NCBI GenBank assembly: GCA_945897885.1
Contig: CAMDGU010000009.1
Span: 1-64,000 of the forward strand
DNA: 64,000 nucleotides
Source of the DNA: Chitinophaga pinensis
Lineage (GTDB): Bacteria; Bacteroidota; Bacteroidia; NS11-12g; UBA9320
Reading direction: 5' to 3'
Numbering within the stretch: position 1 is the first letter of the stretch; every line of letters begins with the position of its first letter. Made by a program: the position numbers and the translations under genes. The notes below the pieces were generated by a model. That model did no database searches. It saw only the letters and a program-made list of their open reading frames with translations, and was not told where the DNA came from. Below are positions 23,259 through 37,478 of the stretch, piece by piece.

Positions 23259-24128
23259 CTAGTGTTCCTGAATCAAAGAGATAAAATCGCCGTGGAAAAT
23301 GCGTTCTTTTAAGTCATATCCATCACCGTCCACCATTACATGAACAATCAGATTTTCCAAAGAAATAGGGCTACCTTCGGGAATATCGGCAATATTGGAA
23401 TGGCGTATTTTATGTCCGTCTACCAGTATCACACATCCGCTGCCTATAGCTTCAAAATGATTGCCTCCCGTAATAATAAGGCCTGTATCTTCGCCAAGTC
23501 CAATACCTATGCAGGATGGATTGCAACCCACAGCTTGGGCTAATCGGCCAAAGCGACCACGTTTTTCAAAATGTGAATCGATAATAACATTTTGTAAAAA
23601 AGCCAATCCGGTGGTTATCCTCACTTCGCCTTTTAAATGAGCTGTAGTACTATTACCATGGTAAATCATGGTATTACTCATAGCCATCGCTCCGGCACTG
23701 GTTCCGGCCATTACAAATTTTTCATTTTCATAGCGGTTATGAATAATACTCATCAATTCGGTTCCACCTAAAATGGTGGTAAGACGCAACTGATTTCCGC
23801 CCGAAAACATTACGCCATCACACTTTTTTATGCGTTCAATAAAATCCGGATTATCGGCATCGTCCCTATATTTTATATGGATTATTCCAACATTGTCGCA
23901 ACCAATTTTGCCAAAAGCTTTTAAATAATTTTCACCTACTTCTTCGGGTATAGAGGAAGCGGTAGTAATAACTTCTATATGAGAATGGCTACCCCCAATT
24001 TCTTCCACAACACGTTTCAGAATGCCAAGTTCAAAAAAATTAAGGTTATTTTTTTGAATAAAATCCGGCTCAGCTTCTGTGCCTTTGTCTTCTGCTCCGC
24101 CTATTGAAATTAATTTTCCTAATATCAT
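23259..24128 (-). CDS. cphB: Cyanophycinase
   Basis: This 289-residue peptidase of the S51-like family hydrolyses cyanophycin (multi-L-arginyl-poly-L-aspartate) to beta-Asp-Arg dipeptides. The nucleophile serine is S144 in GTSAGAMAMS, with the preceding FSGGNQLRL (109-117) and the downstream glycine-rich IGIGLGEDTGLI typical of the family. There is no signal peptide, so it is cytoplasmic. It is transcribed divergently from cyanophycin synthetase, with a 314-base shared upstream region. The pair makes a minimal nitrogen, carbon and arginine storage module. Confidence 0.93.
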   Translation of the reverse strand: MILGKLISIGGAEDKGTEAEPDFIQKNNLNFFELGILKRVVEEIGGSHSHIEVITTASSIPEEVGENYLKAFGKIGCDNVGIIHIKYRDDADNPDFIERIKKCDGVMFSGGNQLRLTTILGGTELMSIIHNRYENEKFVMAGTSAGAMAMSNTMIYHGNSTTAHLKGEVRITTGLAFLQNVIIDSHFEKRGRFGRLAQAVGCNPSCIGIGLGEDTGLIITGGNHFEAIGSGCVILVDGHKIRHSNIADIPEGSPISLENLIVHVMVDGDGYDLKERIFHGDFISLIQEH

Positions 24129-24442
24129 TTAGTTCAATTTCTGTTTTTTAAATTATGGTAATGATGAATCTTTGATTTGGAATCATCTTTAAAAAGTTTC
24201 AAAAATAGGCCATTATTAAGAGAATGTTAAGTGTAATACCTTTTTTAAGTAACAAGTAATGAACACAAAATGCCAGAACAAATGAGAATAGTTTAAAATA
24301 TTTAAAACCATCAAATGTTGATGACTAAGTATTTTTTGTTTTTTAATAGTTTTAATCTATAAATTGCCGCTTGCAAATTGGTAGGATATGAAATATCGCA
24401 GATATTCCATATTTCCTATAAGTAAAAAACAGATAATTACAT
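24129..24442. promoter_or_regulatory. Divergent cphB-cphA control region
   Basis: This 314-base AT-rich gap contains no gene I can support. On the minus strand a -7 match TATTTTTG lies at 24207-24200, giving cphB a leader of about 65 bases. Two dyads lie on the cphA side: CATCAA-ATG-TTGATG at 24309-24323, and a larger imperfect inverted repeat at 24384-24416 centred on GCA (arms GGATATGAAATATC and GATATTCCATATTTCC) that ends 26 bases before the cphA ATG. Either could be an operator. Their regulator is unknown. Confidence 0.5.
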
Positions 24443-27076
24443 ATGAAGATAATTGATATAAAGGTAATGAACGGGCCGAATTACTGGAATGTAAAGCGGC
24501 ATAAATTAATAGTAATGCGTTTGGATTTGGAAGAATTGGAAGAACGCCCTACTAATAAAATAGATGGCTTTTCTGAACGCATTGAAAAAATGTTTCCAAG
24601 CATGCATTCGCACCGGTGTTCACCTGGCAAGCCGGGGGGATTTTTTTTAAGGGTAAAAGACGGCACCTGGATGGGACATGTAATAGAGCATATCGCCTTG
24701 GAAATTCAAACGTTGGCAGGTATGGAATGTGGCTTTGGCCGTACCCGTGAAACTGCAACGCCGGGTGTGTATCATGTGGTGTTTAGTTATTATGAGCAAA
24801 AAGCAGGAATACATGCCGCCAAATCAGCGGTACGAATTGCCGAAGCCCTTATAAGTGGCGAAGATTATGATGTGGATGCCGTGATTCAAGAACTACGCGA
24901 GATTCGTGAAAACGATCGCTTAGGTCCAAGTACAGGCTCCATAGTTGATGAGGCTGTAAAACGCAAAATTCCTTTTATCCGTTTAAACAACCGTTCATTG
25001 GTACAATTGGGTTACGGAGTAAATCAACACCGCATACAAGCCACTATTGCCAGCACTACGAGTAGCATAGCGGTAGAAATAGCCTGCGATAAGGAAGATA
25101 CTAAAAATCTTTTGGAGGCCGCTGAAATTCCTGTACCAAAAGGAAGGATTTGCTATGACGAAGAAGAATTGAAAGCAGCAGCCAATAAGCTGGGGTATCC
25201 TTTAATTACCAAACCTGTAAATGGAAATCATGGTAAGGGGGTTACCACCGATTTAAACAATTGGGATGACTTATTAATCGGTTTTAATGCTGCTCAAAAA
25301 TATGGTAGGGGAATAATAGTAGAACGATACATAACAGGCTTCGACCACCGAATATTAGTTATTAATTACAAATTTATTTGTGCTGCCAAGCGTACACCAG
25401 CAGCCGTAATAGGTGATGGTAAAAGCACTTTGCAAGAACTTATTGATAGAGTTAACTCTGACCCACGCCGTGGATATGGACATGAAAAAGTTTTAACAAC
25501 CATTAAAGTTGACCATTTTACCCAAAATATTTTAACCGAAAAGGGCATCACCCTTGAAACAATATTGCCTGCCGGGGAAGAACTGTGGCTAAAGCCAACT
25601 GCTAATATTAGCACAGGAGGTACTGCCACCGATATTACAGATTTGGTACATCCAAGTAACATTTTTATGTGCGAACGGATAGCCCGCATCATAGGTTTGG
25701 ATATTTGTGGTATAGATATAATGGCTCCCGATTTAAGCACGCCTTTATCCGAAAATGGTGGAGCAGTACTAGAGGTAAATGCTGCACCGGGTTTCCGTAT
25801 GCATCTTGACCCAACGGAAGGAATTGGCCGCAATGTGGCTGAACCTGTAATCGACATGCTGTATCCTCCGGGAAGTTCGGCACGCATTCCTATCATAGCT
25901 GTTTCGGGTACCAATGGAAAAACTACCACCACCCGCATGATGGCTCATGTTTGCAAGCAAATAGGCCACAAAGTGGGCTATACCACTACTGATGGAGTTT
26001 ATATCCAAAATGAATTAATGCTGAGGGGCGATTGCACCGGTCCTGTTTCGGCTGAGTTTGTTTTAAAAGATCCATCGGTTGATTTAGCCGTTTTGGAATG
26101 TGCCAGAGGCGGAATATTAAGAGCCGGCTTAGGCTTTCATAATTGCGATATGGCCATTGTTACCAATATAGCTGCCGACCATTTGGGCTTGCTAGGTATT
26201 GATACCATTGAGCAACTGGCCAGGGTAAAATCGGTAGTTCCCCGAAGTGTATTGCCCGAGGGGTATGCCATTTTAAATGCCGATGATGATTTGGTTTACC
26301 AAATGCGAAACGATGTGGACTGCAAAGTAGCCTTGTTTAGTTTGGATGAAAACAATCCGCGCATTAAGGAACATTGCAAAGAAGGAGGATTGGCAACGGT
26401 TTATGAAAATGGCTATGTAACCATACTAAAAGGCGAATGGAAAATACGGGTTGAAAAAGTAACCAATATTCCTATCACCTTTGGGGGTAAAGCTGAGTTT
26501 AATATTGCCAATACCTTACCGGTAGTAATGGCCAGTTACCTCCGCAATTTTAAACTGGAAGATATTCGATTGGCACTGCAAACCTTTATTCCTTCACCGG
26601 CACAAACTCCGGGACGAATGAATATGTTTTATTTCAACAACTATACGGTGATGGTTGATTATGCCCATAATACAGCCGGCTTGCAGGCTTTGGGTAAATT
26701 TTTGAGAAAAGTAGAAAGTCCGCGAAAAGTTGGAGTAGTAGCCGGAGTGGGAGATAGACGGGATGAAGATACCATTTCATTAGGAGTGGAAGCGGCTCAT
26801 TTGTTTGATGAAATAGTGATTCGCCAGGATAAAAACCTGAGAGGCAAAAGCGGACAGGAAATTATTGATTTGATAACAAAAGGCATTCATTCGGTAGACC
26901 CTAATAAAATAGTTCACGCTATACCCAACGAAGTAGAAGCCATAAATTTTGTGATGGATAATGCTACCAAAGATAGTTTTATAACCATTTGCAGCGATGT
27001 AGTTCCAATAGCCTTGGATATGATAATAGCCTTGAAAGAAGCCGAAGATACAAGGGCTTTGTCAAGAGGGTTTTAA
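24443..27076 (+). CDS. cphA: Cyanophycin synthetase
   Basis: This 877-residue, two-reaction enzyme adds Asp and Arg to grow cyanophycin using ATP. It has an N-terminal domain with HVIEHIALEIQ, an ATP-grasp domain (about residues 215-475, including KPVNGNHGKGVTTD and the metal-binding EVNAAPGFRMH), and a Mur-ligase-like C-terminal domain. The P-loop of that domain is GTNGKTTTT near 488-496, with VTNIAADHLGLLG and VMVDYAHNTAG further on. The length matches the family. It is divergent from cphB and overlaps the convergent membrane-kinase-like gene by four bases. Confidence 0.96.
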   Translation: MKIIDIKVMNGPNYWNVKRHKLIVMRLDLEELEERPTNKIDGFSERIEKMFPSMHSHRCSPGKPGGFFLRVKDGTWMGHVIEHIALEIQTLAGMECGFGRTRETATPGVYHVVFSYYEQKAGIHAAKSAVRIAEALISGEDYDVDAVIQELREIRENDRLGPSTGSIVDEAVKRKIPFIRLNNRSLVQLGYGVNQHRIQATIASTTSSIAVEIACDKEDTKNLLEAAEIPVPKGRICYDEEELKAAANKLGYPLITKPVNGNHGKGVTTDLNNWDDLLIGFNAAQKYGRGIIVERYITGFDHRILVINYKFICAAKRTPAAVIGDGKSTLQELIDRVNSDPRRGYGHEKVLTTIKVDHFTQNILTEKGITLETILPAGEELWLKPTANISTGGTATDITDLVHPSNIFMCERIARIIGLDICGIDIMAPDLSTPLSENGGAVLEVNAAPGFRMHLDPTEGIGRNVAEPVIDMLYPPGSSARIPIIAVSGTNGKTTTTRMMAHVCKQIGHKVGYTTTDGVYIQNELMLRGDCTGPVSAEFVLKDPSVDLAVLECARGGILRAGLGFHNCDMAIVTNIAADHLGLLGIDTIEQLARVKSVVPRSVLPEGYAILNADDDLVYQMRNDVDCKVALFSLDENNPRIKEHCKEGGLATVYENGYVTILKGEWKIRVEKVTNIPITFGGKAEFNIANTLPVVMASYLRNFKLEDIRLALQTFIPSPAQTPGRMNMFYFNNYTVMVDYAHNTAGLQALGKFLRKVESPRKVGVVAGVGDRRDEDTISLGVEAAHLFDEIVIRQDKNLRGKSGQEIIDLITKGIHSVDPNKIVHAIPNEVEAINFVMDNATKDSFITICSDVVPIALDMIIALKEAEDTRALSRGF

Positions 27077-27894: not shown

Positions 27895-28212
27895 TTAATC
27901 AAGCAAGATTATTTTGGGCTTATTGTTAGGAAACTCAATTTTTACAGGCCCCCATTTGGTTTCATAAAACTCAATTCTGCTTATTCGGTCCATGGCCATA
28001 TCGTGTAGGCTTTCATTTTTTATGTAAACAATGTAATAGTCAGTCACCTCTTCCAGCATTATTTTGGTTGTGATGGTTTTGTCTGTCTCAAATATTTTTC
28101 CAAAGCCAAGGGCCTTCAAGTCTTCTTTTTTTGAAAGATCAGGGCCGTTTATTAAATTCCCCGATGAAAGACTCAAAAGCCAGATAACTGTAAGAACCAT
28201 TACGTTTTTCAT
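27895..28212 (-). CDS. Small secreted protein, unknown
   Basis: This 105-residue protein has an N-terminal signal peptide (MKNVMVLTVIWLLSLSSG). The mature part is short and beta-rich (TKIMLEEVTDYYIVYI, RISRIEFYETKWGPVKIEF). I do not recognise the family. It follows the CsgG-like barrel gene by 24 bases in the same direction and ends at a strong terminator, so the two form one transcript. A periplasmic partner role for the upstream protein is possible but only inferred. Confidence 0.72.
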   Translation of the reverse strand: MKNVMVLTVIWLLSLSSGNLINGPDLSKKEDLKALGFGKIFETDKTITTKIMLEEVTDYYIVYIKNESLHDMAMDRISRIEFYETKWGPVKIEFPNNKPKIILLD

Positions 28213-28236: not shown

Positions 28237-29352
28237 CTAATTTACTTTTGGTTTTTTGTAAATGTTGAAACCAAAGCTAAATCCTGCTATAGTTCCTTCT
28301 TTGCGCGGCATCACATAAAGATTTACAGGAATATTAAGATAACCTGATTTGAAAGTGCGGCCTACACCCATAAATAAACTGGTGGAAAGGGTATTGAAAC
28401 CACGGCTATCCAATCGGTTTTCGATGGTGTTAGGATTAGGAGTAGTTCCTGTCCATTCTTTTTCAAGGTGCCATTCATCGTTTTCAAAATAGCCATCCGC
28501 TTTGGTTACAATTCTAAAAGTAGGTCCAAAGGCAAACTCCCAACCAGCTTTCCCTACTCTAAATCCATTAAGAAAAGTAGCTGAAGGAATAAATTTACCC
28601 GATTCTAAACCACCAATCATTGGAAAAAACTCCACCAAAGCTTGAAAATTTCCGGCACTGATGTATTGTTTTTCAAATTGCCAGCCTATTTGAAAAGTGG
28701 CAGGATACATGTCAAATCCACCTTTGCTTTTTGGTGCAGTTAGGACTTTACCAGCATCACCAAAAGCCATAGAAGCTCCCATTCTTGGGCCGTTTAGTTT
28801 CAGCTGAGTTTGCGGGCTAGCAATAGGGGCATCGTAATTAACCAATACGTTTACAATATTTGGATCGGGAGCTATTCCCAACAATCGTTGAACCGAAATA
28901 GTAATCATGCGTTGCAATTCAGGCTGTAAATTTTGGTATTCAGTAGCATCATGTTTTTCTACCGATGCAGTAGCAATGTCAATTACTTTTAAGGAAATAA
29001 CTATTTTTTCACCAAAGCGTTCCACACTTCCGGTAATCATTTTGTCAGCACCCAAGGCTTTTCCGGCAGCCACCACACACGATTTTCCATAGCAACTAGT
29101 TACATCAATTTCATTTTTTTTAATCAATTCAGCCATATCGTACTTATCCATCATGTTGTAAGTATTTGTTTTTTCTAATTCAAGCCTTACCATGTAGCTT
29201 ACCGATTCTGAATTGTTGATTACGCCTTTGCTATCAATACTGAGCACTGCAGCTGTGGGTTTTCCATTTCCTTGAGAATTTGCAAAAAAGGAAGTTCCTA
29301 ATAACGCAATTACAAGTAATAATTTTTCGATGTTGTTTTTTAAAGTTTTCAT
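28237..29352 (-). CDS. CsgG/LpoB-like domain fused to outer-membrane barrel-like region
   Basis: This 371-residue exported protein has a signal peptide (about residues 1-26). Residues about 30-165 resemble the CsgG/LpoB/TolB-N type alpha-beta domain: AVLSIDSKGV, LELEKTNTYNMMDKYDM, CYGKSCVVAAGKALGADKMITGSV and IVISLKVIDIATASVE. Residues about 185-371 have alternating hydrophobic strands (WQFEKQYISAGNFQALVEFFP, GWEFAFGPTFRIV, GTIAGFSFGFNIY) like a small outer-membrane barrel. The two parts are usually separate proteins. It leads a two-gene unit with the 105-aa secreted protein. Upstream blocks at 29370 and 29435 are shared with the epimerase operon. Confidence 0.7.
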   Translation of the reverse strand: MKTLKNNIEKLLLVIALLGTSFFANSQGNGKPTAAVLSIDSKGVINNSESVSYMVRLELEKTNTYNMMDKYDMAELIKKNEIDVTSCYGKSCVVAAGKALGADKMITGSVERFGEKIVISLKVIDIATASVEKHDATEYQNLQPELQRMITISVQRLLGIAPDPNIVNVLVNYDAPIASPQTQLKLNGPRMGASMAFGDAGKVLTAPKSKGGFDMYPATFQIGWQFEKQYISAGNFQALVEFFPMIGGLESGKFIPSATFLNGFRVGKAGWEFAFGPTFRIVTKADGYFENDEWHLEKEWTGTTPNPNTIENRLDSRGFNTLSTSLFMGVGRTFKSGYLNIPVNLYVMPRKEGTIAGFSFGFNIYKKPKVN

Positions 29353-29369: not shown

Positions 29370-29450
29370 ATGAGGCAAAGGTTCACAAATCCAATAGGCT
29401 ATTAAAATTGCCTAAAGCAGGATTGAAGGGGGTTTTTGCATTTTTTGCAA
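29370..29450 (-). promoter_or_regulatory. Shared upstream control blocks, copy A
   Basis: A 14-base block, ATGAGGCAAAGGTT (29370-29383), contains the near-consensus -7 AACCTTTG on the minus strand. Sixty-five bases away lies TTTGCA-TTT-TTTGCAA (29435-29450). The same two blocks recur at exactly the same 65-base offset before the epimerase operon (32106 and 32171). The position upstream of the likely start of transcription suits an activator. Confidence 0.55.
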
Positions 29451-29567
29451 CAAATCAAACACGATAGGTAATTAAAGTTGCACTTTGTACCTTTTTTCAG
29501 GAGGAGGAATCAGCCTTATAGAAATCTTAGCAATTCTTTTTTGCTTAAGTTGCGATATAAGTCAGTT

Positions 29568-30383
29568 TTATTTTGAAAGTGTATCCACTTTTTTTTGCGA
29601 CCGATGAATGATTACATCCATAAGCCTTGGGAAAAATTTAATTAAGAAGTAATATACTTTTCCTGAAAATCCGATGATGGATTGTTTTTTTCTGTATTCA
29701 ATATTTAGGCTAATTCCTTTTGCCACATTAGGCATGCTTTCGGTAAATATTCCTTTGCGTTCGTCCAGCACCAGTGTTTTTCCATTGGCATCCAGTGCCG
29801 TTTTATCTTTTTCAATTTTGGTAATACCCACATAAACTAAGCCTACATGAATACCGTGGGGCTTGGTTTCAAATCGCAACGATTGAGAAATAGCTGTAAG
29901 TGCCATTTTAGCTGCACTGTATATCGAAATTACAGGCAATCCCCGCAATGCCGCCAAACTGGAAATAAATACAATACTTCCTTTGGTTTGTTCAATATAA
30001 GGTAATGCTTTTTTGGTAAGTATTATTGGGGCAATGGTATTGATATTGAAAATAGTAGAAATAAGTCCAGGTGATAGATGTTCCAACTTGCCTCGCATAG
30101 AAACTCCGGCATTGTTTACCAAAATATCAATTTTTCCAAAGCTATCTATTGTTTTTTGTATAAGTCGGTCACATTCTTTTTCGTTGGTAATATCACCAAC
30201 AAATCTAACTACACTGCATCCTGCTTCTTTAAGTTCTATTTCTGTAGCCAGTAATCTTTCAGCATTTCGGGCATTTAATACCACATGAGCTTTTTGTTTT
30301 CCTAAATACAGAGCCAATGATTTCCCAATACCCATGGACGAACCTGTGATTATGACAACTTTTTGCTCAAAAAAGGATTTCAT
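29568..30383 (-). CDS. SDR-family oxidoreductase
   Basis: This 271-residue classical short-chain dehydrogenase has a cofactor loop TGSSMGIGKSLA (about residues 13-24), the NNAGVSM motif, a catalytic Ser in SSLAALRG, and Tyr/Lys in YSAAKMAL. The C-terminal extension (about residues 235-271) has a hydrophobic stretch VYYFLIKFFPRLMDVIIH that could associate with membrane. The substrate is unknown. It is the last gene of a three-gene operon (epimerase, CPBP protein, SDR) and overlaps the CPBP stop/start by four bases. Confidence 0.88.
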   Translation of the reverse strand: MKSFFEQKVVIITGSSMGIGKSLALYLGKQKAHVVLNARNAERLLATEIELKEAGCSVVRFVGDITNEKECDRLIQKTIDSFGKIDILVNNAGVSMRGKLEHLSPGLISTIFNINTIAPIILTKKALPYIEQTKGSIVFISSLAALRGLPVISIYSAAKMALTAISQSLRFETKPHGIHVGLVYVGITKIEKDKTALDANGKTLVLDERKGIFTESMPNVAKGISLNIEYRKKQSIIGFSGKVYYFLIKFFPRLMDVIIHRSQKKVDTLSK

Positions 30384-31099
30384 GTGTATTTCATATCTGG
30401 ATTGTGGTAAACAGAATAATAATCATTTGACAAAGCCAATATTAAATGGGTTACAAATGCCACTGCAATGCTGCCTGTAGAAATAGTGGCATAGCAAAGA
30501 AACAAACCATATGGGAAACTTCCTACCGTTTCGGTTAATCCTTTGGCAATATGTGTAGATGAATAAAAAGATAAATTGATAGCCACTGCCGGCCAAAATC
30601 CAAATGCGTGATAGCAAACCAGTAAAAGCAGTCCGCGATACATGAGTTCATAGGAAAATAAATAGGCCATCCAGCTTAGGGTATTCAGGAGGATCGTTTT
30701 TCTATTCCATATATTTACCCGCATTTGCGGATACATGGCAAGATTATTTGTGTTTTTGGAAACAAAAAAATTAACGATAAGGATAAAAGTTCCTGCTGCT
30801 GAAATATAAAGGAGTGATTCTTTAAAGTTTTCCAGGTTTAATCCTAAATCAGCAAGTGTATAATCTGAATTTGAAATCAAAATTATACAAGGGATAGTAC
30901 CCATAAAAAGTACACCCATCATTTTTTGAAAAAGCACATATGCTACCCAGGCATTTTCCGAACTGTATTTTTTAAAAAATAAAGATTTCAGTTTTTCACT
31001 CATGGCCAAAAACCAATAAACTGCAAAGCCTATCGAGACAGAGAGAATTGTTAAGGTTGCAGCGCTGTATTCAGGGTTCCAATTATAATTTACGTTCAT
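30380..31099 (-). CDS. CPBP/Abi-family intramembrane protease-like protein
   Basis: This 239-residue protein has about seven hydrophobic helices. The CPBP region shows YELMYRGLLLLV (normally E-E-x-x-x-R; here only one Glu precedes the Arg), then FYSSTHIAKG and FVTHLILAL, which carry the second and third motif positions including histidines. These match the CAAX protease/bacteriocin-processing family, with a weakened first motif. The substrate is unknown. It sits between the epimerase and SDR genes with almost no spacing (5 and -4 bases), so it is an integral part of that operon. Confidence 0.75.
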   Translation of the reverse strand: MNVNYNWNPEYSAATLTILSVSIGFAVYWFLAMSEKLKSLFFKKYSSENAWVAYVLFQKMMGVLFMGTIPCIILISNSDYTLADLGLNLENFKESLLYISAAGTFILIVNFFVSKNTNNLAMYPQMRVNIWNRKTILLNTLSWMAYLFSYELMYRGLLLLVCYHAFGFWPAVAINLSFYSSTHIAKGLTETVGSFPYGLFLCYATISTGSIAVAFVTHLILALSNDYYSVYHNPDMKYT

Positions 31100-31104
31100 A
31101 ACTC

Positions 31105-32091
31105 TTAAATGTATTTATTTTCTTTAAACCAATCCAAACTTTGTTCAATCCCAACTTCAATAGGTGTTTGAGGCATATCCAATTCTTTTACTGCTTTTTC
31201 TGAGGTAAAGTAATTGTTTTCTTTGGCCAATAAAGCTATTCCCATGCTTAAGATAGGTGGTTTTTTTGTAACCCTAGCTACCACCGAACCCAAAAATCCA
31301 GCAGTAAGTAAGATAGGATTTGGAACACCGGTCATGGCAAAGGGTTTATTCATTTTTTTGAATGCCTTTTCAAAAAACTCTTTGTATTCCAAATTTTCAT
31401 TGCCTGCAATATAGCACTGTCCCAGTCTCCCTTTTTTTAATGCATTTACTGCAGCTGAGGCAACATCCTTACTACAAACAAAGTTTTTTCCTCCACGATT
31501 ATAAAGTTTTAGTTTGTTTTTGTAAATAGCTATCAGCATTTTTCCCGAAGATGGGCCTGAATCAAACGGGCCAATCATAAACGTAGGATTAATTATAATT
31601 ACAGGAAACCTGGTTTTGTTAAACTGGTCAAGCAACAGATTTTGTGCTTCATATTTACTGTCAATATAATCCATCTTAAATTTATGGCCTGCATAGGGTT
31701 TTTTTTCACTCCCCGGATTTTCTTTGCTGCCATTATTGAATGAACTGGCTGTGCCAATGTGCACCATCCGTTCCATTTTAAGTTGTTCGGCAGCCTGCAT
31801 CACATTTTTGGTTCCTTCAATATTTACATGCCTTATTAATTCTGATCGTCTTGGCCATAAACTCATCAAGGCTGCAACATGTATTACATAGTTACAGCCC
31901 TTCATTTTTTGTAAAAGCAGATTTTTATCAGATACATCACCTTCCACAATTTCAATCGGCAAATTATTCAGAGTGGTTGTTTTTCGGTTAGGAAAACATA
32001 AAGCCCTTACCTCATACCCTTGATGAAGCAACTCTCGGCAAATACTACTTCCCAGCATTCCATCGGCCCCTGTTACAAATACTTTATTCAT
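31105..32091 (-). CDS. NAD(P)-dependent epimerase/dehydratase family protein
   Basis: This 328-residue extended SDR has an N-terminal cofactor loop TGADGMLGSSICRELL (about residues 7-22) and VIHVAALMSLW. The canonical Tyr-x-x-x-Lys is represented by YIDSKYEAQNLL around 142-153. The C-terminal region PQTPIEVGIEQSLDWFKENKYI follows the dihydroflavonol-reductase/3-beta-HSD-like pattern. The substrate may be a sterol-like, polyketide or sugar moiety and cannot be chosen. It is the first gene of the operon, divergent from the HTH regulator across a 220-base control region. Confidence 0.87.
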   Translation of the reverse strand: MNKVFVTGADGMLGSSICRELLHQGYEVRALCFPNRKTTTLNNLPIEIVEGDVSDKNLLLQKMKGCNYVIHVAALMSLWPRRSELIRHVNIEGTKNVMQAAEQLKMERMVHIGTASSFNNGSKENPGSEKKPYAGHKFKMDYIDSKYEAQNLLLDQFNKTRFPVIIINPTFMIGPFDSGPSSGKMLIAIYKNKLKLYNRGGKNFVCSKDVASAAVNALKKGRLGQCYIAGNENLEYKEFFEKAFKKMNKPFAMTGVPNPILLTAGFLGSVVARVTKKPPILSMGIALLAKENNYFTSEKAVKELDMPQTPIEVGIEQSLDWFKENKYI

Positions 32092-32105
32092 TGAATCTAT
32101 ATTAA

Positions 32106-32186
32106 ATGAGGCAAAGGTTTAATAATTGGCGTTTATCTAAAAATTGAAAAAATGGCATTAGGTGTTGCAATTTGCACTATTTGCAA
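32106..32186 (-). promoter_or_regulatory. Shared upstream control blocks, copy B
   Basis: ATGAGGCAAAGGTT (32106-32119) and TTTGCA-CTA-TTTGCAA (32171-32186) are the same two blocks found before the CsgG-like gene, with the same 65-base offset. An extra TTGCAA at 32165-32170 extends the repeat. They lie between the divergent epimerase operon and the HTH regulator gene, which is a candidate for the binding protein. Confidence 0.55.
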
Positions 32187-32311
32187 ATAAAATAAAATGT
32201 TTAGTGATAATAGTTGCATAATATAATAAAATGTGGTTTACTTTGTCAAGCGGTTTAGTTTTAAATACGAATAAAAATTAGGCTACTTGCATTTTTTCTA
32301 AATGTTTTTTT

Positions 32312-35993: not shown

Positions 35994-37478
35994 CTTATCC
36001 TCGTTGTAAAGCTACCGTGTACCCACAAAGTTAGTTTACTTTCGCATTAAGGATTAATAAATGAGTACCATATATACACCAAGGTTTACTAATCTTTTCT
36101 TGGATAAAAGATTAGAAAAAAGGGGCTTCAGTTGTTTCGTTTGCTTTTACAGGTTTCCCACACCAGCATTCGCAAGATAAGTCCTACCAGAGCGATTCAG
36201 AAAGGGATTTATCGTTTTTTAAATAATAAAAAAGTGGATGAAGCTATTCTAATTAATGAACTATGTGTTAGATCCTGTTCGCTGGCTGCGGGCCGTCATA
36301 TTTTATGCATTCAGGATACCACGGAAATGAATTATTTCGCTCATAGAAACAGGATAAAAGAGAATACAGGTTTTGGCAGACTTGATGGGGCCTAGCCCTC
36401 ATTAGGATTTAAAATGCATAGTACTTTGATGCAGGATGCTTCAAACGGTGATATTTTTGGTTTCTCAGATGTTCAATTATGGCATCGTCCTTTAGACATG
36501 CCTAATCGCAGAGAAAGAAAATACCAAAGTCTGGCTGTAGAGGAAAAAGAATCTTATAAATGGATTCTTGCAGCTAAAGCAAGCAAGGAAAGATTAGCCC
36601 AAGCTAAGATGATAACATTTATTGAGGACAGAGAAGGTGATTTCTATGAACAGCTTAGCAGTATATCTCAAGAAAATGTTCATTATATAATCCGGTCAAA
36701 AAATAACAGAAAAACTACGGATACACTTAAGGCATGGGAGATTTTGTCGGGTCAACCAATTTTAGGGTCTTATATGCTTTCATTGCAAACGGATTATCGC
36801 AAAAAGAGGATAAAGCAAATTATACCATTAAAGGTTAGATATGCTACGATTACCTTAGCCAAAGGGGAGCATATTAAAAATAATAAATCATATCCAAATA
36901 CTATAACTCTCCAAATTGTTGAAGCCTTTGAAGAAAAAAAGGACGGAATAAGTTGGAAACTCTTAACAACCCATCCCATTAAAACGTTTGAAGATGCTTA
37001 TAAAATTATAGAATGGTATTCACAACGCTGGATGATAGAGCAGATTCACAGGCTACTTAAAAGTAAAGGCTTTCAAATTGAAGATAGTGAACTGGAAAAT
37101 GGTTGGGCAATACGAAAAATTTGCATTGATATGCTTAGTTCATTGCTCAAAATTATTCAAATGAATATTGCTTACAATGAACCCGAAGAAGGGCAAAAAA
37201 TAGAGGTGGCCTTCACTCCAAACGAAATTGAATGTTTAAAAGAAATTAACCACAAAATCCAAGGGAACACCCATAAACAAAAGAATCATAATAACCCTCA
37301 AAAATTAAAATGGGCTACGTGGATTATAGGGCGTCTTGGCGGCTGGAAAGGATATGATTCGCAAGGGCCGCCAAGGATTATAGTTTTAAAAACAGGACTA
37401 GATAAGTTTAATGCTATTTATTATGGCTGGCAGCTTGCTAGAGATGTGGGTACACGTTAGGTTGCAAACGAGGACAAG
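35994..37478 (+). mobile_element. IS4-family insertion sequence, decayed
   Basis: The element is about 1485 bases long. Terminal inverted repeats of about 34 bases (35994-36027 and 37445-37478) share the perfect inner block CGTGTACCCACA and an outer CTTNTCCTCGTT. Inside is one transposase frame with IS4 (YREK) signature residues. The transposase stop codon lies inside the right repeat. I could not find a target-site duplication. Both a frame break and an in-frame stop disrupt the gene, so the copy is probably inactive. Confidence 0.85.
36061..37460 (+). pseudogene. IS4-family DDE transposase, frameshifted and nonsense-interrupted
   Basis: The N-terminus starts at an ATG at 36061 (MSTIYTPRFTNLFLDKRLEK). 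The frame is then lost at a run of six A and four G (36116-36125) and continues one base back as KGLQLFRLLLQVSH. A TAG at 36393-36395 interrupts the frame, and the same frame resumes as PSLGFKMHS. All three catalytic acids can be placed: D in CIQDTTEMNY, D in FIEDREGDFY, and E in the exact IS4 signature Y-x2-R-x3-E-x6-K (YSQRWMIEQIHRLLK). Without the two lesions it would encode about 465 residues. Translational slippage at the A run cannot be excluded, but the amber codon makes it a pseudogene. Confidence 0.82.

Follow-up and report, generated by a model that had tools for sequence, protein, structure and literature searches.

A palindrome shared by two promoters and conserved beside a family of HTH regulator genes suggests a small envelope and lipid regulon in Bacteroidota

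Two transcription units in the analysed window (the whole stretch of DNA, 64,000 nucleotides in length) were found to share a control region made up of a palindrome and a -7 box at a fixed distance from each other. This combination occurs once more in the genome, and the palindrome is conserved beside genes of a single HTH regulator family across the order. Comparison of these sequences makes it probable that a one-component regulator of the Xre type acts from operators near -72 as activator of a small regulon of envelope and lipid genes. Such a pairing of one-component regulator and palindromic operator is of an ordinary kind; the novelty lies in the regulator family, the operator and the envelope and lipid targets. 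The features discussed are listed in Table 1.

Table 1. Positions in the window of the genes and candidate control elements
Feature	Position	Strand	Remark
Small secreted protein, follows barrel gene	27895..28212	-	
TolB_N/LpoB-like domain fused to OmpX-like 8-strand barrel ("CsgG-like")	28237..29352	-	
-7 box AACCTTTG, promoter A	29376..29383	-	Within block 1 (29370-29383); consensus TANNTTTG, PMC9723704
CAATT element, promoter A	29406..29410	-	Common to A, B and C19
Operator A, palindrome TTGCAAAAAATGCAA	29436..29450	-	Centre ~-72 from predicted start of barrel gene
Half-site TGCAACT	29476..29482	-	~31 bp upstream of operator A; 31-bp period also in homologues
Short-chain dehydrogenase/reductase (SDR)	29568..30383	-	
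CPBP/Rce1-like membrane protein	30380..31099	-	
NAD-dependent epimerase/dehydratase, HpnA-like, 3beta-HSD-like	31105..32091	-	
-7 box AACCTTTG, promoter B	32112..32119	-	Within block 1 (32106-32119)
CAATT element, promoter B	32142..32146	-	
Operator B, palindrome TTGCAAATAGTGCAA	32172..32186	.	Between HTH gene and epimerase operon; predicted to serve both directions
Half-site TGCAACT	32212..32218	-	~31 bp upstream of operator B, inside promoter region of HTH gene
Candidate -7 box TTACTTTG of HTH gene	32238..32245	+	51 bases from operator B
HTH regulator, 337 aa	32312..33325	+	Xre/BetR-type N-terminal domain plus C-terminal domain

The first-pass annotation had reported ATGAGGCAAAGGTT at 29370 and 32106 and TTTGCANNNTTTGCAA at 29435 and 32171, and the offset is indeed 65 bases in both copies (A, before the barrel gene, and B, before the epimerase operon); neither block has a further exact copy in the window. 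The blocks had been read forward, but as the target genes of A and B lie on the minus strand they are to be read on that strand, where TTGCA-N5-TGCAA is followed by 52 bases and then by AACCTTTGCCTCAT at both sites. The positions stood and the identities changed, block 1 being a -7 box plus downstream bases and block 2 the palindrome. The Bacteroidota -7 box has the consensus TANNTTTG and occupies -12 to -5 (PMC9723704), which places the centre of the palindrome near -72. Judged by this sigma-A consensus, AACCTTTG in A and B has one mismatch, and the third copy found on contig C19, TACTTTTG, is exact. The sequence between the blocks, described earlier as different, does differ largely (21 of 52 bases identical between A and B, 14.7 expected, p 0.04) but not wholly, as CAATT is common to both at offset 26-30, that is, 25 bases past the palindrome and 22 ahead of the -7 box; this element was noticed post hoc. 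The similarity continues over 38 bases on the upstream side of the palindrome, with 21 identities where 12.1 were expected (p 0.001), and in both A and B a TGCAACT half-site lies ~31 bases upstream of the palindrome.

The rarity of this arrangement was assessed in the genome of 3.03 Mb, the genome-wide work consisting of pattern searches plus stretches of sequence. The 14-mer of block 1 with up to two mismatches gave 56 matches against 51 for a reversed control, and block 1 was rejected as an independent motif given this absence of enrichment; a repeated 14-mer in a 64-kb window is no rarity. The palindrome alone occurs 20 times, mostly within genes, where a first-order Markov model predicts ~13.6. 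This count was rejected as sole proof, as the excess is mild and many genomes lacking the HTH gene also have several palindromes. The composite palindrome-N52-NANNTTTG was found at three sites against ~0.10 expected given the 20 palindromes, and when CAATT, with its post hoc origin, is included the same three sites remain and essentially none are expected. The reversed-control composite had no match in the genome, and the next-best full composite has two mismatches. The third site (C19:15140-15214) lies on another contig and precedes an outer-membrane-barrel-like gene, the product of which has an apparent N-terminal signal peptide. It is thus the combination that exceeds chance, as the first-pass annotation had argued for the geometry, and not the separate blocks. 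Occurrence of the pattern before many unrelated genes had been named beforehand as evidence against a regulon; this check did not overturn the regulon idea.

It is very improbable that the spacing match of A and B reflects only a recent duplication of DNA, or chance, and carries no regulatory meaning. Such an origin would agree with the upstream and intervening identities (21/38 and 21/52) and with the unremarkable nature of a repeated 14-mer in the window, but the third, unlinked promoter has the same architecture with no overall similarity, and conservation of the palindrome beside HTH genes extends across the order. The third promoter also modifies the proposal of a local regulon: an identical promoter on another contig means that the regulon is not strictly local, and the palindrome also precedes a fatty-acid hydroxylase gene in two species. 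Few genomes of the genus keep the strict 52-base spacing, and it is absent at the C56/C16 hydroxylase and at the barrel gene on contig C2 of G005. An order-wide search for the composite says little, since its pattern was too strict and misses A and B themselves. A composite palindrome-N52-NANNTTTG is present in another family of the order (locus L250; G060 contig C14, 7485-7560). An RfbC-like gene also has an intergenic palindrome, 209 bases ahead of it and lacking the -7 spacing (locus L046, 3960; G000 contig C4, 39959-39973), and may be a weak extra target.

A scan of the genome collection returned 79 loci with homologues of the HTH gene, of which 78 were usable, and the region from -350 to +60 of the HTH start was searched for sites. 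The exact palindrome was found upstream of 35 of the 78 homologues (37 sites in 31 kb vs 5 in 612 kb of flanks), and when symmetric A/G variants were allowed, as TTGC(A/G)-N5-(T/C)GCAA, the number rose to 53, against 0.35 expected from the flanks. The other 25 had no recognisable site in the region examined, in which a few loci are incomplete. In an unbiased search of all 5-mer dyads, TTTGC-N7-GCAAA (38 loci vs 1 flank match) and TTGCA-N5-TGCAA (35 vs 5) ranked first. Repeats of TTGCA with a 31-bp period occur at 17 loci and nowhere in the flanks. One homologue has three palindromes upstream of it, exactly 31 bp apart (locus L150, 453-530). Among sister species and members of the family, the HTH gene and its divergent neighbour have the palindrome between them, and in many relatives the operators are nearer the HTH start; the palindrome is absent in the sister species G004 and G007, whose HTH proteins are 71-73% identical. 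As the switch adjoins one regulator gene across relatives, that regulator probably controls a few envelope and membrane-lipid genes, for which no description was found, and phylogenetic footprinting in this way supports the earlier suggestion of an undescribed regulon under the adjacent HTH protein. Enrichment of the palindrome at the HTH gene itself is typical of a self-operator.

What speaks most against an exclusive link between palindrome and HTH gene is G002, where the palindrome is kept before the barrel gene and the HTH gene is a remnant of 42 residues. A deletion has removed most of this gene (locus L121, 8960-9362; contig C12), providing a natural test of regulator loss. G002, together with some palindromes far from any HTH gene, would be accounted for if a more global regulator bound the palindrome and the HTH gene were merely one of its targets. 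This is improbable: at the HTH gene the palindrome is enriched over 100-fold in distant genomes with otherwise different neighbours, and the -7 box of G002 is degenerate (AAAATTTA), as expected once the regulator had been lost.

The HTH gene is present as a single copy in this genome, has matches, a few of which are fragments, in 31 of 38 family genomes and belongs to a family found in 84 of the 108 genomes of the order. Its product (the 32312 protein) scored 22.6 bits for BetR (PF08667) against a family cut-off of 21.6, and 14 of 19 homologues matched BetR at an E-value of 0.01 or better. The recognition-helix region (YRR) is constant. In the structural model (pLDDT 86.7) the N-terminal helices match Xre-type HTH structures, and a search of viral folds returned matches to essentially HTH domains only. 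No described function was found for the family in a limited literature search, nor any match for the palindrome strings or for the BetR domain together with "Bacteroid". The protein resembles the Xre/Cro-CI one-component regulators (BetR PF08667, HTH_3) in its N-terminal HTH, which lies just above the BetR cut-off, and in having a short palindromic operator beside its own gene with tandem sites, as judged by footprinting. It differs from them in its C-terminal domain of ~250 residues, for which there was no convincing Pfam match and no clear solved relative. The operator, the candidate targets and a testable model are thereby available for a regulator family of most genomes in the order, and the site may be used for target prediction in culturable relatives.

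The 32312 protein is predicted to bind ATTTGCA-N5-TGCAAAT as a dimer through its Xre/BetR-type HTH, and would bind more weakly at a second site ~31 bp (three helical turns) upstream. Under this model it would control, in response to some signal, its own gene along with a limited number of genes for the cell envelope and membrane lipids. The candidate targets are the operon of the epimerase, CPBP and SDR genes, the barrel gene together with the small secreted protein gene that follows it, and the C19 outer-membrane-barrel-like gene, and the fatty-acid hydroxylase gene on contig C56 is a probable further one. Operator B would drive both divergent promoters from nearly equal distance, and equivalents of the candidate -7 box of the HTH gene lie 50-51 bases from the operator in two sister species. 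The half-site upstream of B, within the HTH promoter, may limit the regulator's own synthesis and so close an autoregulatory loop. In A, B and C19 the operator keeps a constant position, its centre ~72 bases ahead of the predicted start, so that activation of the class I type is the most likely mode, in which the 32312 protein would touch RNA polymerase.

Promoters activated in this way are known from CRP at lac and similar systems. They likewise have a palindromic operator at a fixed distance upstream of the core promoter, here ~-72, and the distance is fixed in three promoters of this genome. In contrast to CRP/FNR, the presumed regulator is of the Xre/BetR type, the operator is a 15-bp palindrome with a 5-base spacer and the promoter is of the Bacteroidota kind (TANNTTTG). 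Xre-type proteins are often repressors, and it is conceivable, if rather unlikely, that the HTH protein binds the palindrome as a signal-released repressor, the spacing then arising from common descent of the promoters or from looping between tandem sites. Besides this general tendency of Xre-type proteins, repression would agree with the tandem sites 31 bp apart, with the operators nearer the HTH start in many relatives, which could block the gene's own promoter, and with the extra similarity of A and B, which fits duplication. However, an operator near -72 at A, B and C19 lies far upstream of the -7 box, which is unusual for direct repression, and the C19 copy keeps the same spacing without overall similarity to A or B. 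The lack of a -33 TTG was considered as a sign of activator dependence and was dropped, as such an element is present in only 3 of 13 further TANNTTTG promoters of the window.

The barrel gene is the commonest neighbour of the HTH homologues (34 of 78 loci) and invariably lies upstream, on the strand opposite to theirs. Also recurrent are genes for a CDP-alcohol phosphatidyltransferase (15 loci) and for a family of secreted proteins (15), as well as the epimerase gene (6), and phosphatidyltransferase and CTP-transferase genes are present at the loci of G003 and G004. The family of the C19 barrel occurs near HTH genes at five other loci (best match 1.6e-101), and in G005 its homologue has a palindrome 270 bases upstream. 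In G005 a composite site precedes a fatty-acid hydroxylase gene, and a bare palindrome is found before another such gene in this genome (contig C56) and in G006. As the intergenic region surrounding the C56/C16 palindrome is generally conserved, conservation of the palindrome itself at this place is weak evidence. With its barrel, phosphatidyltransferase, epimerase and hydroxylase genes, the set leans toward envelope and lipid functions, and the surface-lipid role suggested earlier fits this content; the epimerase may be linked to sphingolipids, as a possible ceramide reductase. Many distant homologues have other neighbours, e.g., aldehyde dehydrogenase, which indicates that the targets are not identical everywhere. 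In Bacteroidota, outer-membrane barrel proteins would through this regulon be tied to lipid-modifying enzymes.

The product of the barrel gene had been called CsgG-like, which holds only loosely. Its N-terminal domain has a fold of the TolB_N/LpoB/PelC type, with matches to TolB (Foldseek E 1.5e-8), LpoB, PelC and small barrels in an AlphaFold model with a mean pLDDT of 77. The Pfam scores for CsgG (16.7 bits, cut-off 20.8) and TolB_N (19.9 bits, cut-off 22.4) both fall below threshold, and sequence comparison yielded no convincing solved relative for this protein or for the HTH protein. Compared with the TolB N-terminal, LpoB, PelC and CsgG proteins, which share the fold, the product is fused to a single-chain OmpX-like barrel and is not a CsgG secretion channel.

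The C-terminal domain of the HTH protein gave weak fold matches (E 0.05 or worse) to members of the PLD superfamily, namely FAM83A, phosphatidylserine synthase, polyphosphate kinase and SauUSI. None reached an E-value of 0.001, the best being 0.053 for FAM83A, and there was no Pfam PLD match. A conserved NSEVMIGN stretch (N-x-E-x4-N) is spaced like an HxKxxxxD motif in degenerate form. That the domain is a degenerate PLD-like sensor is a lead only. TrmB-type regulators combine an HTH with a PLD-like effector domain, and the 32312 protein recalls them in these fold matches and in N-x-E-x4-N at the HxKxxxxD spacing, but the E-values are 0.05 or worse, the HTH is of another class and no TrmB structure is among the matches listed. 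It is speculative, and on balance doubtful, that the C-terminal domain is a PLD-like fold devoid of catalytic activity which detects a membrane lipid or lipid head-group and tunes outer-membrane lipid chemistry along with the barrel protein. If it did, the epimerase/SDR, phosphatidyltransferase and fatty-acid hydroxylase would be adjusted jointly with a barrel bearing a TolB_N/LpoB-like periplasmic domain, and the HTH family would represent widespread lipid-sensing regulators of Bacteroidota.

The HTH and barrel genes face each other directly in G003 and in more distant relatives. This genome, G005 and G006 have the epimerase, CPBP and SDR genes between the two, and each unit has one copy of the control region, one of the G006 copies having a mismatch. 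The residual similarity of A and B is as expected if the control region had been duplicated on insertion. In G006 both the barrel gene and that of the small secreted partner are duplicated in tandem (locus L103, 7140-10250; contig C7). Near the barrel operon the window also contains divergent genes which by sequence look like cyanophycinase and cyanophycin synthetase (23259-27076); such a pair is also found beside the barrel operon in G005, and the synthetase in G006. Transposase-like reading frames, apparently in two pieces, are present at 36132-37460.
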